The position numbers and the translations under genes are program-made. This document shows, in pieces, positions 51,091 to 61,324 of a DNA stretch of 64,000 nt. How positions within the stretch are numbered: the first letter of the stretch is position 1; the number at the start of each line of letters is the position of its first letter. The notes under the pieces were generated by a model that was given only the letters and a program-made list of their open reading frames with translations, searched no databases and was not told the origin of the DNA. Source of the DNA: Deltaproteobacteria bacterium. Its GTDB lineage: Bacteria; Desulfobacterota; Binatia; Binatales; Binataceae. The DNA is taken from the NCBI GenBank assembly GCA_021794015.1, contig JAJYRQ010000010.1, positions 1 through 64,000 on the forward strand, in the 5' to 3' direction.

Positions 51091-52167
51091 ATGGACGGTA
51101 TAGAAGATGCCGCTGGCCGAACAAACCCAGAAAACCAGCGGGCGCGTAAGAAGTTGTATGAGCGGATGCGCCGGCATAACCTTGCGCCGCTGTGGGAGGT
51201 GCTGCACGACATCCTGAGGCCGGCCCCGGCCAGCCCTTGCGCACCCGCACTGTGGCGCTATACGGAGATGCGCCCCTACCTGTTGGAGGCTGGCAATACG
51301 AACTCGGCGGCCGAGGCGCAGCGCCGTGTCCTGGTGCTGGAGAATCCGCAACTACCCGGCCAGTCGCGCATCACGCGCAGCCTTTACGCCGGCTTGCAGA
51401 TCGTGATGCCCGGCGAGATCGCTCCCGCCCATCGGCATGTCGCGGCGGCGCTGCGCCTAATTGTCGAAGGCGCTCCTGGCGCCTACACCGCGGTTGACGG
51501 CGAGCGGACCGCGATGGCATCCGGTGATTTCATCATCACTCCTTCGTGGACGTGGCATGACCATGGCAACGAGAGCGACCGGCCGGTGGTCTGGCTCGAC
51601 GGGCTGGACCTGCACATCGTCAACCTGTTCGAGGCCGGCTTTTACGAGCAGTGGCCCGAAGAACGGTACCCTACGACGCGACCGGCGGGCAGTTGCTTGG
51701 CGGAGATCGGGGCCGGTTTGCTGCCGGTCGACGATGGCGGCGGCGGTCACACCTCTCTGCTTCTCAGCTATCCGTACGCGCGCAGCCGCGAGGCCCTTGA
51801 CAGCCTGGCGCGCCATCAGGCCCCGGATGAGTGTCACGGTTTCAAAATGAAGTTTCTCAACCCGCTAAACGGGGGCTGGGCACTGCCGACGATCGCAACG
51901 TGCATGCAACTGTTGCCCAAGGGCTTTCACAGCGTACCCTACCGGAGCACCGCGGCAACGGTATTCGCCGTCGTCGAAGGCAGCGGCTCGACCCTGGTCG
52001 GCGCTGAGCGCCTGGATTGGCAGCGTCACGACGTGCTTGTGGTCCCGAGCTGGGTCCCACACGAACATATCGCCGCGACCGAGGCGGTGGTTTTCTCCTT
52101 TTCCGATCGCGCGGCCCAGGAACGGCTGGCAATTTACCGGGAGCAGCGCGGCCCGCGCCGAAGCTAA
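51091..52167 (+). CDS. Gentisate 1,2-dioxygenase-like bicupin
   Basis: A 358-residue protein with two cupin domains. The N-terminal iron site is IAPAHRHVAAALRLIVEG...GDFIITPSWTWHDHGN, matching gentisate and 1-hydroxy-2-naphthoate dioxygenases. The C-terminal cupin has lost most ligands (FHSVPYRSTAATVFAVVEG), as is usual. It opens the gentisate ring to maleylpyruvate. Followed 20 nt later by the isomerase that acts next. Confidence 0.9.
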   Translation: MDGIEDAAGRTNPENQRARKKLYERMRRHNLAPLWEVLHDILRPAPASPCAPALWRYTEMRPYLLEAGNTNSAAEAQRRVLVLENPQLPGQSRITRSLYAGLQIVMPGEIAPAHRHVAAALRLIVEGAPGAYTAVDGERTAMASGDFIITPSWTWHDHGNESDRPVVWLDGLDLHIVNLFEAGFYEQWPEERYPTTRPAGSCLAEIGAGLLPVDDGGGGHTSLLLSYPYARSREALDSLARHQAPDECHGFKMKFLNPLNGGWALPTIATCMQLLPKGFHSVPYRSTAATVFAVVEGSGSTLVGAERLDWQRHDVLVVPSWVPHEHIAATEAVVFSFSDRAAQERLAIYREQRGPRRS

Positions 52168-52187
52168 GCCGTGCCGCTGAGGATGCT

Positions 52188-52823
52188 ATGAAGCTTTATT
52201 CGTTCTTTCGCTCTTCCGCCAGCTACCGGGTGCGCATCGCGCTTGGCCTCAAGGGGCTAGCCTACGACTACCATCCGGTGGACCTGCGCTCGGAGCAGGA
52301 CTTGTCGGCTTACTTGAGCGTAAACCCCCAGGGCCTGGTCCCGGCACTGGAAGACCAGGGAGACATATTTATCCAGTCGCTTGCGATCATCGAGTACCTG
52401 GAAGAAACTCACCCGCAGCCGCCGCTGCTGCCGTCCACCGCGGCGCAGCGCGCGCGAGTAAGGGGCCTGGCGCAAGTTGTGGCCTGTGAGATTCACCCGC
52501 TAGACAATCTGCGGGTGTTGAACTACCTCGGCGGACCGATGAAGCAGGGCGAGGAGGTCAAGCTGGCATGGTATCGCCATTGGATCGCCGTGGGGCTCGG
52601 CTGCCTCGAGGCGCTGCTCAAGGACCATCCAGCCACCGGCAGGTTCTGCCACGGCGATTCCCCCACGCTGGCCGATATCTGCCTGGTGCCGCAGCTTTAC
52701 AACGCCCGACGCTTCCAGTGCGAGCTGTCGCCCTATCCGACCTTGCTTCGGATCGACGCGGCATGCGCTGCGCTGCCGGCCTTCCAGAACGCCTGCCCCG
52801 AGGCCCAGCCGGACGCGGGGTAG
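52188..52823 (+). CDS. maiA: Maleylacetoacetate/maleylpyruvate isomerase (zeta-class GST)
   Basis: A 211-residue zeta-class GST. ATG 52188 gives MKLYSFFRSSASYRVRIAL, with the SSxxS glutathione-activating motif, then VNPQGLVPALE and a C-domain ending. Upstream frame is a shadow of the dioxygenase end. Placed directly after gentisate dioxygenase it most likely isomerises maleylpyruvate to fumarylpyruvate. Fumarylpyruvate hydrolase is not nearby. Confidence 0.92.
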   Translation: MKLYSFFRSSASYRVRIALGLKGLAYDYHPVDLRSEQDLSAYLSVNPQGLVPALEDQGDIFIQSLAIIEYLEETHPQPPLLPSTAAQRARVRGLAQVVACEIHPLDNLRVLNYLGGPMKQGEEVKLAWYRHWIAVGLGCLEALLKDHPATGRFCHGDSPTLADICLVPQLYNARRFQCELSPYPTLLRIDAACAALPAFQNACPEAQPDAG

Positions 52824-53099: not shown

Positions 53100-53834
53100 A
53101 TGAGACTGGTTAACACGGTGCCGGTGCTGGACGAGGCGAAGTGCATCGGCTGTGTGATCTGCAGCTCGGTTTGTCCAACTCTGGCCTGGAGCGTGGATCG
53201 GAAAACCCGGCTGGCTGTGCTGCAGGAGGCCCTCTGTTTTGGCTGCGTAAACTGCGAGTCGCGCTGCCCGACCTATGCCATCAGGATGGTCCCACGCAAA
53301 AGCGAGCGTTGGCTATACGTCGACCCGGGGCAGGTCGACTATGCGAAGGTGGAGGCATTGTGCCGGAGTGCTCGGCTGCATCCCGAGCAGATAATCTGCT
53401 TCTGTACTTCGTCGCGTGCCGAAGAGGCGGCGGCCGCGATTCTGACCGGCTCGCGCACGCCCGAGGAGATATCCACGCGCACCGGCATCCGCAGCGGCTG
53501 CACCGTTGAGTGTTCTCAACCGTTGCTGCGTCTGCTGGAGGCGGCCGGCATCCCCTTCCAGCCTGCGTTAGACGGCAAGGGCTGGCAGATTTACGGGACC
53601 GTACCCACCGTGTGGGACATTCCCGCCGCGGTGAAACAGAAGTACGCCGGGCGCGGGTTTCATTTTGATGCGGACGCCGTCCTGATGGAGGAAGTTGCCG
53701 CCGGCCCCACGCAGACAGCCGGCATGCACGATTGCGCTTGCCGCGATCGAGCGCCGAGCGTCCGTGGCATATCCGGCGCGCCTCGGCCATGTGGGCCGCA
53801 GACAAAGGCGGGCGACGCTCGGGGTGGACTATGA
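53100..53834 (+). CDS. Iron-sulfur protein: two [4Fe-4S] ferredoxin sites plus BFD-like [2Fe-2S] site
   Basis: A 244-residue protein starting at ATG 53100. Two C-x2-C-x2-C-x3-C clusters occur at C15-C25 and C46-C56. Then a BFD-type domain has C100-x-C102 and C134-x3-C138 (CFCTSS... and GCTVECSQ). The last 80 residues have no known match. It overlaps the next gene by 4 nt (ATGA), so they are translated together. It likely passes electrons to or holds a metal cluster for the LarA-like partner. Role is inferred. Confidence 0.75.
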   Translation: MRLVNTVPVLDEAKCIGCVICSSVCPTLAWSVDRKTRLAVLQEALCFGCVNCESRCPTYAIRMVPRKSERWLYVDPGQVDYAKVEALCRSARLHPEQIICFCTSSRAEEAAAAILTGSRTPEEISTRTGIRSGCTVECSQPLLRLLEAAGIPFQPALDGKGWQIYGTVPTVWDIPAAVKQKYAGRGFHFDADAVLMEEVAAGPTQTAGMHDCACRDRAPSVRGISGAPRPCGPQTKAGDARGGL

Positions 53835-55297
53835 AAAGAGAGCCCATAGCGCCGCGGCCGGCGCGGCAGTCCGCTTACGGCATAGACCCGGTCCTGCTCA
53901 AAAAACGCGCCGCTGAGCTTGCGGGCATCTGCTCGGTGCGGGTCACCGATCTTTTTCCGGATCAGCCGGAAGTCATCTACCCGAACGAACAGGGGATTCG
54001 CGCGGTTCGGGAAGAGACCCGGCGCAGGATGGCGCGGGTTGATCTGAGCCGGATTAAGCCCGGTGATTCGGTCAACGTGCTTTGCTCGCACCATGGTTTC
54101 ACGCTGATGGGGGGCGAGCCGTACGCCGAGATGCTGCGCACCATCCGCGACCTGGTCGCCGAGCGAACCGGCTGTACCCGCATCAACCTGCGCGTGGGCC
54201 AGGGTCTTCGCTACCGGGAAGGAGAAGAATACATCCGGGCTTTTCAGCTCGACTCGTGCTTCAGCAATACCGCAGCCATTGCGCCAATCGACAAAGGCAT
54301 CCCAATCGAGACGGAAATCGGAACGCTCTACGGGATTCGCAAGGCCTACGACGCGGACTGGATCATCCACGCCCACAACTCGGACGTCCGAGAGATTCAC
54401 TTCCACCGGATGGTGGATCGGGCGGTAAAACCCTTCGGGATGTCGTACGCGCGGCTGGAGACGCGCTCCGGCTATCATCAGAATCTTGGGCCGCGCGCGG
54501 CCAACTTCATGGCCCGGGCGATCTTCGATTCAGACTTCGTCCAGTCCAAGTACCTATGCACGGCCTTCTTGATCGTGGCGCCAACCGGCGTGGTGGCCGT
54601 GGACTGCGACAACGACCTTTACGCGCTCAATGACCGGGTGGTCGTCGCGGGGATGAAATATTACGGCAAGATCGTAAGCTTGCTCGGCTCGATTGACGCC
54701 TGCGTGGCGGTTCTGGACTGCCCGGCGCCGGTTCCCTATGTCGCATCGGCAGGCCTTATCTACGGCAACTTCCTGGGTGCCCAGCACGACCTCTTCGACC
54801 TGGAGAAGCCGCTTCCGTCTTACACCTTCTACACGGAGGCCTATTACGGGCACGGCGAGCGGCCCCTCACCAGGCACGTGCCGGGCATCAACCGGGCGCT
54901 CAAGATGACGGTTCACAACTACGCGATGATCGGCTATCCGAGCGAATTCTTCGCGGCCAAGGTGCCTACCGTGGTGGTGGGGCGCGAGCAAGCTGATCTT
55001 TTCCGCCGGGACCCGCAAAGCGTGGGCTACCTGGACCACGCAGTGATTGCCGACAGCCTGGAGACGGCGGTCGCGTTTGCCCGGCGAGTGAGCGAGACAG
55101 AGAAGCTGCTTATCTTTGACGGCGCCGTGGGCGGGATCAACATGAGTGAATCCCTTGCCGAGCACTTCCTTAAGGTGGCGCCGGAAGTGAGCCGGATGGT
55201 GGAAGAAGATCGTCTTCCCCGCTGGCTGCGCCAGCGGGGGATGGACCCGTCCATCCTGGACGACTGGCCCAACCGTAGATACCCGCAGGCGGCCTGA
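53831..55297 (+). CDS. LarA-like protein (DUF2088 candidate)
   Basis: A 488-residue protein coupled by an ATGA overlap to the Fe-S protein. It has two Rossmann-like halves and several conserved-looking histidines: SHHG (87-88) and the cluster H180, H182, H190, H192 in AHNSDVREIHFH. Layout resembles the nickel-pincer lactate racemase family (LarA), but the canonical His/Arg/Lys signatures are not clear, so I keep the call tentative. If so, it would use an NPN-type cofactor to racemise or epimerise a 2-hydroxy acid. Confidence 0.5.
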   Translation: MKREPIAPRPARQSAYGIDPVLLKKRAAELAGICSVRVTDLFPDQPEVIYPNEQGIRAVREETRRRMARVDLSRIKPGDSVNVLCSHHGFTLMGGEPYAEMLRTIRDLVAERTGCTRINLRVGQGLRYREGEEYIRAFQLDSCFSNTAAIAPIDKGIPIETEIGTLYGIRKAYDADWIIHAHNSDVREIHFHRMVDRAVKPFGMSYARLETRSGYHQNLGPRAANFMARAIFDSDFVQSKYLCTAFLIVAPTGVVAVDCDNDLYALNDRVVVAGMKYYGKIVSLLGSIDACVAVLDCPAPVPYVASAGLIYGNFLGAQHDLFDLEKPLPSYTFYTEAYYGHGERPLTRHVPGINRALKMTVHNYAMIGYPSEFFAAKVPTVVVGREQADLFRRDPQSVGYLDHAVIADSLETAVAFARRVSETEKLLIFDGAVGGINMSESLAEHFLKVAPEVSRMVEEDRLPRWLRQRGMDPSILDDWPNRRYPQAA

Positions 55298-55424
55298 AAA
55301 GGCCAAACCCGTTCCCGTGATCGCTCCCGGACATTCGGCTCGGCCCCTCCCTACCGGATGTGGGCGGGCGCAGCCGCTCCGCATCCGGTCGGCGTGAGAC
55401 TGCCTCGAAGATGCCCATCCGCTC

Positions 55425-57152
55425 GTGAATAAAGCGATGCCGGGCGACATCCGCGACGAGATTTTCCACCACCTTGCCGGCCAGGCGACGACTGCCGTGG
55501 TGTCGGCTGAGGCCGACGGAGTCTTAGCCGGCATCGAGGCAGCTCGACGCCATGGCAGCGCCCTAGGCTTATCGATCACGGCACGAGTTCAGGACGGAGC
55601 GGGTCTTAGGCGAGGCGATATCGTGCTTGTGGCCCGGGGATCTGCTCAGGCGATAGCCCGAGGCGAAGAAGTGCTCATCGGAGCAATGGCGAAACCTTCG
55701 GGAATCGCCAGCGCGGCCGCCCGGGCGGGTCGCCTGGCCGGCCGGCGGGTCCGCGTCGTCTGCGGCGCCTGGAAGAAAATGCCCCCGGAAATGAAGGCGA
55801 TCGTGCGCGACGCGATCCAGGCCGGAGGCGCCAGTTTTCGAATCGCCGAGCCCCCGTTTCTCTATCTGGACAAGAATTACCTGCGGATGCTCGGCGGATT
55901 GGGCGCGGCGCTCGAGGCAACCGCACATCTGCACGGCTATGCCCAAGCGGTGCAGGTACGCGGCGAGCGGGCGGCTATTGCGGACGAGGCTGCCGAAGCA
56001 GCCGCCGCCGGTGTTGCCGTGCTGATGGTGGATACCGGCCAGCCCGAAGATATTGACCGGGTGTCACAGCGGCTGCGCAGCATGGGGCTGCGCGACAAGG
56101 TGCGCATCGCTTTTGCCGGGGGCATCAGGCTCGACCAAATCGAGGCTCTGGCGGCGCGTGACGTGGACATCCTCGACGTGGGAACTGCCATAGTAGACGC
56201 ACCGTTGCTGCCACTGCGGTTCGACGTCGTCCCGCGTTCTGCGGTCAGCGCCCCGATCGAGCTCAACCTGCTCGAAAAGACCGAGCTTTGGATTCGGCCC
56301 ATTGAGCTCCGGGAGGCCGACCTCCAGGCTATCGGACAGGCTGTCGCCGAGGTGCTGGAGCTGCCAGGCGACGAAGTGCTGGTGACCGACGTACGCGACC
56401 AGGTGATCACCCTGGACGTTCTGCGGCCTACGGTAATGGCCGAACAGATCGCGGGAAAAGAGCGGGCTTTGCTCGAACGGCTTGCGGCGCTGCCGGGCGT
56501 CACTCTGGACGAGGAGACCGCCGTGCACTCGGAAGGCGTTCTCGGCCTCATCGGCCTGAGCCAGGCGCAAACCGCAGCCGTGCTCGAGGCCGGGCGCGAT
56601 CTGAGTAGCCGCCTGCGCGCCGCGATGGCCCGGCGCGCCATGGTTTTTGCCACCGGCGAAGAGGTCCGTCGAGGCGCCATCCGGGATACCAATACCGAGC
56701 TGATTGTGGAACGGCTGCGCCGGCACGGCTTTCGGGTTGCGGTCGGACCCGTGCTTCCTGATGACGCCGAGACGATCGCGGGCGCCCTGCGTCGTGCCGC
56801 CGGGGACGGCTACGGCCTGGTGATTACTACCGGAGGATTGGGCGCCGAAGACAAGGACTGCACGGTCGAGGGCGTGCTCGGCGTGGATCCGGAAGCCGCA
56901 ACACCTTACCTTGTCCACTTTCCCAGCGGCGCCGGGCGCCATGTCAAAGACGGAGTGCGTATAGCGGTGGGCCAAGTCGAGCAATCTTTGATAGTCGCCC
57001 TGCCCGGACCCAACGAAGAAGTGCAAGTAGCCATGGAGGTTCTGCTGCAGGGCTTAGCTGCCGGCCTGGATAAGGCGGAGATGGCGCAGGCGCTGGCTGA
57101 GCGCCTGCGCCAGACACTGCGCGATAAGATGGCGCGCCGCGCTCACCGCTAA
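55425..57152 (+). CDS. Fusion of NadC-like phosphoribosyltransferase and CinA/MoCF-like domain
   Basis: A 575-residue two-part protein. Residues 1-270 look like quinolinate phosphoribosyltransferase (NadC): KPSGIAS, GGASFRI, FLYLDKNY, and the late FAGGIRLDQIEALAARDVDILDVG. Key quinolinate residues differ (WKKMPP). Residues about 275-390 are an unassigned linker domain. The C-terminal part is a CinA/MoaB-like domain: ATGEEVRRGAIRDTNTELI and TGGLGAEDKDCT. It starts at GTG 55425 (or ATG 55437). It follows the LarA-like gene by 127 nt on the same strand. Confidence 0.78.
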   Translation: MNKAMPGDIRDEIFHHLAGQATTAVVSAEADGVLAGIEAARRHGSALGLSITARVQDGAGLRRGDIVLVARGSAQAIARGEEVLIGAMAKPSGIASAAARAGRLAGRRVRVVCGAWKKMPPEMKAIVRDAIQAGGASFRIAEPPFLYLDKNYLRMLGGLGAALEATAHLHGYAQAVQVRGERAAIADEAAEAAAAGVAVLMVDTGQPEDIDRVSQRLRSMGLRDKVRIAFAGGIRLDQIEALAARDVDILDVGTAIVDAPLLPLRFDVVPRSAVSAPIELNLLEKTELWIRPIELREADLQAIGQAVAEVLELPGDEVLVTDVRDQVITLDVLRPTVMAEQIAGKERALLERLAALPGVTLDEETAVHSEGVLGLIGLSQAQTAAVLEAGRDLSSRLRAAMARRAMVFATGEEVRRGAIRDTNTELIVERLRRHGFRVAVGPVLPDDAETIAGALRRAAGDGYGLVITTGGLGAEDKDCTVEGVLGVDPEAATPYLVHFPSGAGRHVKDGVRIAVGQVEQSLIVALPGPNEEVQVAMEVLLQGLAAGLDKAEMAQALAERLRQTLRDKMARRAHR

Positions 57153-59358: not shown

Positions 59359-59463
59359 GCCTTGTTGACCGCGCGCCCGCGGCGTCCGCCCCGGCCCCCG
59401 CGGTAGCGCTTTTTGCCGCCCGCGCGGGTTGTGAACCCGACAAGTTTGCGTCAGAATGACGCT

Positions 59464-60465
59464 ATGGCGCTCGACAAGTTCGTGCTGGCCCTGGCGCAGA
59501 TCGACCCGCGCCTGGGCGACGTGGAGGCAAACCGGGAACAGGTGGCGCGGCGGCTGGGCGAGGCGCGCGCCCAAGGCGCCGACCTGGTGATTTTTCCCGA
59601 GTTGGCCCTTACCGGCTACTTTCTCAAGGACCAGGTCCCCGAGGTTGCGCTGCGGGCCGACGGTCCGCAGCTTGCCTGGCTGCGCGAGCTCAGCAAGGAG
59701 ATCGCCGTGGTGATCGGCCTGGTCGAGGAAAGCCGGGCCTTCATCTACTACAATGCGGCGCTCTACCTGGAACGGGGCGAACTGGTCCACGTTCACCGCA
59801 AGTGTTACCTGCCGACCTACGGACTCTTCGACGAGTTGCGCTACTTCGGCCGGGGCCGCCGGCTGGGCGGCTTTGACTCGCGCTTCGGCCGCATGGCACT
59901 GCTTATCTGCGAGGACATGTGGCATCCCTCGGCGGTTTACCTGGCGGCCGCCGACTATGCGGCTACGATGGTGACTATCTCGGCGAGTCCCGTATGGGGC
60001 GTGGGCAAGGGAGAGCTGCCGGAGAACGCGGCGCACTGGCGCAAGCTGGTGCGCTTCAGCGCCGAGACCTGGGGCCTGTTCGTTGCCTACTGCAACCGGG
60101 TCGGGTTCGAGGATGGCGTTGGCTTCTGGGGCGGTTCGGAGCTGGTCGATCCGTTTGGTCAGACCGTGGCTGCCGCGCCCTGTTACGAGGAGGGGCTCGT
60201 TTTGGGCGAGGTGGACCTGCGCAAGACGCGGCGCAAGCGGCTGCTTTCGACGACGCTGCGCGACGAGGACCTGCAACTCACCCTAAGCGAGTTGGCGCGC
60301 ATCGCGCGGCGCACGGCGCGCGCCGCCGAGACGGCAGAGCTTGGCGCCGCAGACGGCCGGCGCGCGGCCCAGGACAACGGCGCGCCGCCGGCCTCGCGCG
60401 ACGAGGTGGCGGCGCCCAGGAAAACCGCGGCCGGCAAGGGGACCTCCCGGCGCGGCCCAGGCTGA
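59464..60465 (+). CDS. Nitrilase-superfamily amidase, likely glutaminase partner of NadE
   Basis: A 333-residue carbon-nitrogen hydrolase with the Glu-Lys-Cys triad: IFPELALTG (E46), [10 protein letters not shown] (K) and [10 protein letters not shown] (C). In many bacteria this domain is fused to NAD synthetase. Here it is a separate gene ending 8 nt before nadE, so it probably supplies ammonia from glutamine in trans. The C-terminal 50 residues are basic and disordered. ATG 59464. Confidence 0.87.
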
Positions 60466-60472
60466 ACCTGCC

Positions 60473-61324
60473 ATGAAGCAGCGCGACGGCGGCAACGGCA
60501 CAGCTTGGCAACTCGCGCTTAACCTTGAAGTGGCCCGGCGGCTTATTGTCGCCTTCATCCGCAACGAGTTTCTTAAAGTGGGGGTCAGGCGCGCGGTAGT
60601 GGGCTTGTCGGGCGGCGTGGACTCAAGCCTGAGCGCGGCGCTGGCCGCTGAGGCCCTTGGCCCGCAAAACGTCCTCGGGCTTATCATGCCCTATCGCCTC
60701 TCCAGCGCCTCGAGCCGCGCCGACGCGCAATTGGTCGTGAGCAAGACCGGGATTCGCAGCCTGGTGGTTGATATCACGCCGCAGATCGACGCCTACTTCG
60801 AGCGCTTTCCCGAGGCCGACCAGCGGCGCCGGGGCAACAAGATGGCCCGCGAGCGCATGACCATCCTTTACGACCATTCGGTGGCCTTCGAGGCCCTGGT
60901 CCTGGGCACCTCGAACAAGACCGAATTGCTGCTCGGCTACGGCACGGTCTACGGCGACATGGCCTCGGCAGTGAATCCGCTCGGCGATCTTTACAAGACC
61001 CAGGTATGGGCCCTGGCGCACGCCCTGGGCCTGCCCCAGGAGATCGTTCAGAAGCAGCCGTCGGCCGACCTGTGGGTGGGGCAGACCGACGAAGGCGAGT
61101 TGGGGTTCACTTACCGGCAAGTCGACGAGCTGTTGTTCCTGATGGTTGACCGGCGCTACTCGCGCGAGGAGCTGGTCGGCCTGGGCCTTGCCGGGCACTT
61201 CGTTGACCGGGTGGCCGCAATGGTGCGCCAATCGCAGTTCAAGCGCCGGCTGCCGGTCATCGCCAAGCTCTCCGAGCGGACGATCGACCGCGACTTCCGC
61301 TACGCCCGCGACTGGGGCAGGTGA
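60473..61324 (+). CDS. nadE: NAD+ synthetase
   Basis: A 283-residue ATP-pyrophosphatase-type NAD synthetase. The P-loop is SGGVDSS, and [32 protein letters not shown] is the NaAD-binding segment. ATG 60473. It makes NAD from deamido-NAD. The stop overlaps the rsmI GTG by 4 nt (GTGA). Confidence 0.93.

Follow-up and report, generated by a model that had tools for sequence, protein, structure and literature searches.

To our knowledge, the enzymes described as dependent on the nickel-pincer nucleotide (NPN), a recently found cofactor, are all racemases or epimerases acting on hydroxy acids. Treatment of plant biomass yields furfural and furoate in abundance, and no enzyme is yet known to open the furan ring of 2-furoate in the absence of oxygen; the analysis presented here suggests a candidate. 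This is a module of three genes, located in a window of 64,000 nucleotides (contig JAJYRQ010000010.1, assembly GCA_021794015.1) from a deltaproteobacterium of the family Binataceae, that encodes an iron-sulfur (Fe-S) protein, a protein here called LarX (P0002) and a fusion protein (P0003) joining a quinolinate phosphoribosyltransferase (QPRT)-like domain to a MoCF domain (Table 1). The larX module is widespread and uncharacterised, and LarX, judged by its structural model, is a distant cousin of the nickel-dependent lactate racemase LarA. We read the trio as the core of an NPN enzyme system and infer that, in the clade to which the window copy belongs, it reductively opens 2-furoate, a reading to which we assign a probability of about 0.52.

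The middle protein had been called LarA-like in an earlier note on this DNA, and its predicted structure bears this out. An AlphaFold2 model of LarX, built on a 65-sequence alignment (pLDDT 91.5, pTM 0.91), retrieved two malate racemases as its top Foldseek matches, and in VIA-align 12 LarA-family PDB entries (including 5huq, 6c1w, 9eia and 9q3k) aligned with it over 310-349 residues at 9-14% identity and Z scores of 16.4-19.3, the next, unrelated row reaching 6.4. As modelled, LarX has the LarA fold. In sequence it stands isolated from every LarA subfamily: neither P0002 nor any of the 65 aligned members matched a Pfam family, Lar_N (PF09861) included, the NCBIfam models (among them those of the LarAH series) gave one chance-level match to P0002 (E 0.11) and single chance-level matches to the 65 members, and a search of PDB sequences, by P0002 as well as by its profile, returned nothing.

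In LarA_Ip, Lys183 tethers NPN, His199 is a nickel ligand, and His107 and His173 are catalytic (PMC11623692). The pattern H-x9-K-x15-H occurs once in P0002, as H190, K200 and H216; 16 LarA homologues of relatives share this spacing, and 0.9% of shuffled P0002 sequences contain it. K200 and H216 are present in 78/78 LarX members and H190 in 70/78, its position being Tyr or Asp in the other eight. H190 fits H173 by spacing only, and residues 121-130, the region expected to hold the counterpart of H107, contain no His; LarA homologues with a single catalytic histidine exist (PMC12611868).

A wider scan of 84,980 species genomes yielded 129 confirmed larX loci, of which the best 80 were analysed, neighbours being counted by tblastn; 32 of these have full 10-kb flanks (fully sampled loci). 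LarB, LarC or LarE was found in the flanks of 24 of the 80 loci and, within 10 kb, at 13 of the 32 fully sampled ones, where chance would give roughly 1-2% per locus (estimated for genomes of 2-6 Mb that carry one to a few copies). Representative LarB/C/E proteins of these clusters score as curated equivalogs, and Lar genes recur at larX loci of unrelated lineages, both bacterial and archaeal. The tie of the system to NPN, a conjecture in the earlier note, is thus supported by LarB, LarC and LarE in the same clusters of many relatives. LarB also scored above its cut-off in 43 of the 47 larX genomes tested. Genome-wide co-occurrence of larX and LarC was discarded as evidence, because LarC is present in 343 of the 395 genomes of the phylum and is therefore uninformative; gene adjacency was used instead, along with a search for larX genomes that lack LarA.

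We consider it highly probable that LarX binds NPN and is an NPN enzyme. That it shares nothing but the fold and has ceased to bind NPN, its LarB/C/E neighbours serving another enzyme, would agree with the missing sequence relation to LarA and with the Lar_N proteins detected in 16 of the 19 larX genomes searched. This is improbable, however, given the invariance of K200 and H216, the recurrence of Lar genes in these unrelated lineages, and the three genomes that hold LarB and larX and no Lar_N protein, those of Moorella thermoacetica (L064), Alicyclobacillus mali (L090) and an Archaeoglobus (L105), in which consequently no NPN client other than LarX is visible. Seven loci (L057, L070, L075, L078, L101, L110 and L112) also hold, close to larX, a LarA-superfamily protein of a separate type, with LarAH6 as best NCBIfam match (187 bits, cut-off 500).

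The three genes noted earlier are real and their coordinates hold. A homologue of the Fe-S gene accompanies larX at 80/80 loci, and where both genes were called they lie on the same strand (60/60), their median gap being -1 base; in the window, the stop codon of the one and the start codon of the other share the ATGA at 53831-53834, as had been pointed out. With 37 bits (PF14697), the two predicted 4Fe-4S sites clear the Pfam cut-off, while the BFD-like site narrowly misses its own (25.1 against 26). All 12 site cysteines align across 11 relatives, in which C17, C23, C27, C48, C51, C54, C58, C102, C104, C136 and C140 are invariant; this includes all four cysteines of the BFD site.

The third protein had been taken for a fusion of a NadC-like phosphoribosyltransferase with a CinA/MoCF domain, of which the QPRT fold and the MoCF domain stand, whereas the QPRT site is replaced and no CinA C-terminal domain was matched. 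Pfam places QRPTase_N and QRPTase_C at residues 18-263 and MoCF_biosynth at residues 407-542 of P0003, whose model (pLDDT 92.7) aligns its QPRT domain with QPRT structures at a Z score of about 25 and 20-27% identity. The score against the nadC equivalog of NCBIfam is 105 bits, under the cut-off of 198. The quinolinate-binding and catalytic residues of the M. tuberculosis QPRT, which we take to be R105, R139, K140, H161, R162, K172, E201 and D222 (presumed numbering, here and below), correspond to E82, K117, K118, F138, R139, D149, R179 and D203. At the R105 position, P0003 has Glu and its relatives Asp, Glu or Asn; at that of H161, Phe and mostly residues other than His; at that of E201, Arg and mostly Arg or Lys; the K172 position is an invariant Asp, and several of these changes reverse the charge. 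Since the fold is kept and the site residues are replaced, the domain should not be classed as NadC. PF00994 scores well above its cut-off in the MoCF domain (78.6 against 26.6 bits), which retains the motifs of its nucleotide site, their residues being invariant in the alignment of relatives. P0003 did not reach the cut-off of the CinA_nterm subfamily of NCBIfam (26.6 bits, cut-off 243), and no match to the CinA C-terminal (deamidase) domain was found in it, so that "CinA" is better read as "MoCF domain". Between the two named domains, residues ~278-400 form a confidently modelled unnamed domain that matches no family, precedes MoCF in fused and unfused relatives alike, and is barely covered by the fold search, which QPRT-domain matches filled. 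Most relatives encode QPRT and MoCF in two separate genes; besides the window, L034, L035, L038, L089 and L097 have the fusion.

It had also been suggested that the QPRT-like domain could provide a pyridinium nucleotide for LarX in place of LarB, LarC and LarE. The QPRT fold and its constant proximity to larX speak for this, as do the few larX genomes without LarB above the cut-off, but we regard it as very unlikely. A search of the window genome found LarB (C4:10301), LarC (C38:38652) and LarE (C51:44713), all outside the window, so that the domain need not substitute for them; clusters of relatives hold LarB/C/E together with the QPRT gene; and the positions of R105, H161, K172 and E201 are occupied by acidic residues or Asn, mostly by residues other than His, by Asp, and mostly by Arg or Lys, respectively. 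The same genome encodes one LarA homologue of the LarAH14/15/16 type (C47:55538).

Within the phylum, 10 of the 395 genomes searched, besides that of the window, have a real LarX homologue, each adjoined by the Fe-S gene. In the wider scan, larX was found in Bacillota, Thermodesulfobacteriota, Myxococcota, Acidobacteriota, Chloroflexota, Archaeoglobus and other archaea; the plasmid records searched contained no larX system. Two distant matches of P0002 (L013 and L014) were rejected as chance, as they overlie the frames of apparent DnaN and DedA proteins. At the fully sampled loci the three genes are neighbours as a rule, QPRT and MoCF each being present at 29/32, and so is MhpD (29/32), followed by MhpE (25/32), MhpF (24/32) and a BenE-type (benzoate-type) transporter (15/32, and 37/80 overall). 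The MhpE and MhpF of these clusters score above cut-off as 4-hydroxy-2-oxovalerate aldolase (TIGR03217, 543 bits) and acylating acetaldehyde dehydrogenase (TIGR03215, 453 bits) equivalogs, and MhpD is closest to 2-oxopent-4-enoate hydratase, below the equivalog cut-off. In aerobes, MhpD, MhpE and MhpF act downstream of extradiol ring cleavage; the larX-linked set lies in anaerobes.

Near the Alicyclobacillus copies, and in the nearest relatives of the window, the Fe-S, LarX and QPRT/MoCF genes occur without neighbouring MhpD/E/F, which marks the former as the core module and the latter as an add-on. The QPRT-like and MoCF proteins are part of this core and would probably modify, adenylylate or load the cofactor, a role likelier than one in the downstream pathway, because both stay with larX where MhpD/E/F are missing from the locus. 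A second, divergent larX clade (41-48% identity, support 100/100; L026, L027, L028 and L029-L032) is flanked by Fe-S, QPRT, MaoC-type, acyl-CoA ligase, UbiD, tungsten aldehyde oxidoreductase and ABC-transporter genes, and L028 carries three larX copies (at 2590, 7219 and 15058). The catabolic genes beside this clade are different ones, so that the module has probably been put to use on further substrates. Other neighbours include an M24 protein (Xaa-Pro dipeptidase/ectoine-hydrolase-like; K9 family) at 32/80 loci, such as L098 and L103, which might free an acid from an amide conjugate, e.g. furoate from furoylglycine, and molybdenum hydroxylase genes of the xanthine dehydrogenase/4-hydroxybenzoyl-CoA reductase type in the clusters L069, L092, L093 and L110.

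Compared with solved UbiD structures, the UbiD of L084, the one member compared, scored 548 bits with PtHmfF (6H6V/6H6X) and 192 with the next, and 7 of the 10 UbiDs found are this protein or at least 55% identical to it; by sequence, the closest described relative of the cluster UbiD is the furandicarboxylate decarboxylase HmfF. Some larX loci also encode an aldehyde ferredoxin oxidoreductase and an iron-type alcohol dehydrogenase, which would suit furfural and furfuryl alcohol, as well as TRAP carriers. Between 2-furoate (C5H4O3) and the MhpD substrate (C5H6O3) the balance is exactly two electrons, which would explain the Fe-S partner; cleavage of C5-O with one two-electron reduction links the two formulas and fits a hydride-transfer cofactor with a ferredoxin-type partner.

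The proposed sequence of events would begin with LarB, LarE and LarC making NPN, which the QPRT-like and MoCF proteins would probably modify, adenylylate or load and which LarX would bind. Electrons would pass from the Fe-S protein to LarX, where NPN would act as hydride donor beyond the hidden-redox cycle of lactate racemase, and LarX would convert 2-furoate, with 2 e- and 2 H+, to 2-hydroxypenta-2,4-dienoate (2-oxopent-4-enoate). In most relatives, MhpD, MhpE and MhpF would take 2-oxopent-4-enoate to pyruvate and acetyl-CoA. That the larX clade of the window copy reduces 2-furoate is, in our judgement, an even bet. More tentatively, LarX could be the first NPN enzyme other than a racemase or epimerase, a ferredoxin-fed reductase opening heteroaromatic rings with an NPN variant made by the QPRT-fold and MoCF proteins (for instance an adenylylated dinucleotide).

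If LarX were instead an ordinary hidden-redox racemase or epimerase of a hydroxy acid within this catabolic pathway, the Fe-S protein might protect, activate or assemble the cofactor rather than reduce the substrate. According to PMC7583248 and PMC11770544, every LarA relative characterised is a racemase or epimerase of 2-hydroxy acids, and some LarA homologues work with one catalytic histidine (PMC12611868). We nevertheless hold this to be unlikely, as the LarX sequence stands apart from those of all LarA subfamilies, racemases are not known to need an obligate ferredoxin partner, and racemisation would leave unexplained how the MhpD substrate arises anaerobically from an acid imported by a BenE-type carrier. 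A somewhat stronger, still doubtful, possibility is that LarX is an NPN enzyme acting on a different five-membered heteroaromatic or enol acid, such as pyrrole-2-carboxylate, a substituted furoate or a furan dicarboxylate, the window copy having its own variant. The second clade, beside MaoC-type, acyl-CoA ligase and ABC-transporter genes, shows the kind of reuse this would entail; certain UbiDs of the clusters share no more than 33-44% identity with the HmfF-like one, and the window genome lacks MhpE and MhpF. Yet the UbiD compared has HmfF as its best match by a clear margin, the MhpD/E/F set dominates, and the window LarX, 80% identical to L034 and L035 and ~60-65% to MhpD/E/F-linked members, falls inside the MhpD/E/F-linked clade.

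Several points count against 2-furoate opening by an NPN-dependent LarX. Profile comparison of LarX with LarA homologues (hhalign) was not significant, so that their relation is one of fold and, with no sequence-profile link, the cofactor residues are assigned by spacing and not by superposition. Of the 47 larX genomes tested, four are without LarB above cut-off, two of them without any match. MhpE above cut-off, and MhpF altogether, are missing from the window genome (~95% complete), and MhpE from the genome of its close relative L034; that of L035 has MhpE, away from larX. The HmfF-like UbiD occurs at only ~11 of the 80 loci. The role of the QPRT/MoCF proteins is left unexplained by it. An older proposal for Desulfovibrio furfuralis runs via 5-oxo-4,5-dihydrofuran-2-carboxylate, as related in PMC11384913.

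No furoyl-CoA synthetase route was identified in larX clusters. Anaerobes that degrade furan aldehydes are on record, with oxygen-independent routes expected to be discovered and, in 2018, still being called for (review PMC6604932); growth of strict anaerobes on furfural was already known in 1983 (Brune et al., as related in PMC6604932). The open-access literature, within a coverage that leaves subscription papers and preprints mostly outside, held no paper linking LarA-like proteins or NPN to furans.

Just upstream of the trio, the window encodes a gentisate 1,2-dioxygenase (51091-52167; 482 bits, above cut-off) and, directly adjoining, a MaiA-type maleylacetoacetate/maleylpyruvate isomerase (52182-52823); both were set aside as parts of the system, as they do not recur at other larX loci. 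On the other side, at 59413-61324, the translations of two overlapping frames resemble an amidase of the nitrilase type and an NAD synthetase, as would result from the division of a glutamine-dependent NadE between two genes.

Table 1. Positions in the window of the three genes of the larX module and of the domains and motifs they encode.
Feature	Position	Strand	Basis or remark
Fe-S protein gene	53100-53834	+	ATG at 53100, stop 53832-53834; proposed electron donor of LarX
Two [4Fe-4S] ferredoxin sites of the Fe-S protein, Cys codons	~53142-53267	+	PF14697, PF00037
BFD-like [2Fe-2S] site of the Fe-S protein	~53397-53513	+	PF04324
larX gene (P0002), 488-residue LarA-fold protein	53831-55297	+	Proposed NPN enzyme
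Candidate cofactor motif H190-x9-K200-x15-H216 of LarX	54398-54478	+	Spacing as in LarA
Fusion gene (P0003), QPRT-like, unnamed and MoCF domains	55425-57152	+	Pfam, alignments, model
QPRT (NadC-fold) domain, catalytic residues replaced	55443-56237	+	PF02749, PF01729; fold match
Unnamed domain, P0003 residues ~278-400	56256-56624	+	Alignment, confident model
MoCF (MogA/CinA N-terminal type) domain	56634-57062	+	PF00994; TGEEV...DTN and TTGGxG...D motifs

If the proposal is true, an NPN enzyme family with a conserved Fe-S partner and a catabolic setting would extend the chemistry of the cofactor to net reduction, and LarX would supply the first step, so far missing, by which bacteria and archaea degrade furans without oxygen. 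The proposed gene set is present in culturable strains such as Moorella thermoacetica, Desulfofundulus thermobenzoicus, Clostridium magnum and Alicyclobacillus mali.

Compared with the known systems, LarX has in common with LarA the fold (Z 16-19), the H-x9-K-x15-H spacing and the genomic tie to LarB/C/E, and differs from it by the missing Lar_N match and sequence relation, by an invariant set of its own (H180/H182/H192/R187/R193), and by its obligate Fe-S partner, its QPRT and MoCF partners and its catabolic MhpD/E/F setting. The QPRT-like domain shares the two-domain QPRT fold with NadC/QPRT and ModD and conserves Asp203 and Lys118, whereas its substrate-binding and catalytic residues are replaced and new invariant motifs (KK, DKNY and DTG) appear. 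With MogA and the N-terminal domain of CinA, the MoCF domain shares PF00994 and the TGEEV...DTN and TTGGxG motifs, while having an N-terminal domain of its own and equalling no NCBIfam equivalog. Most larX clusters contain the same MhpD, MhpE and MhpF as the lower pathway of meta-cleavage, in this case proposed to be fed in anaerobes by LarX rather than by an extradiol dioxygenase. Finally, 2-furoate as a proposed intermediate and an HmfF-type UbiD are common to the larX clusters and the aerobic furoate pathway (Trudgill, hmfABCDE/FGH), in which the product goes to 2-oxoglutarate, whereas that of LarX would go to MhpD, MhpE and MhpF.

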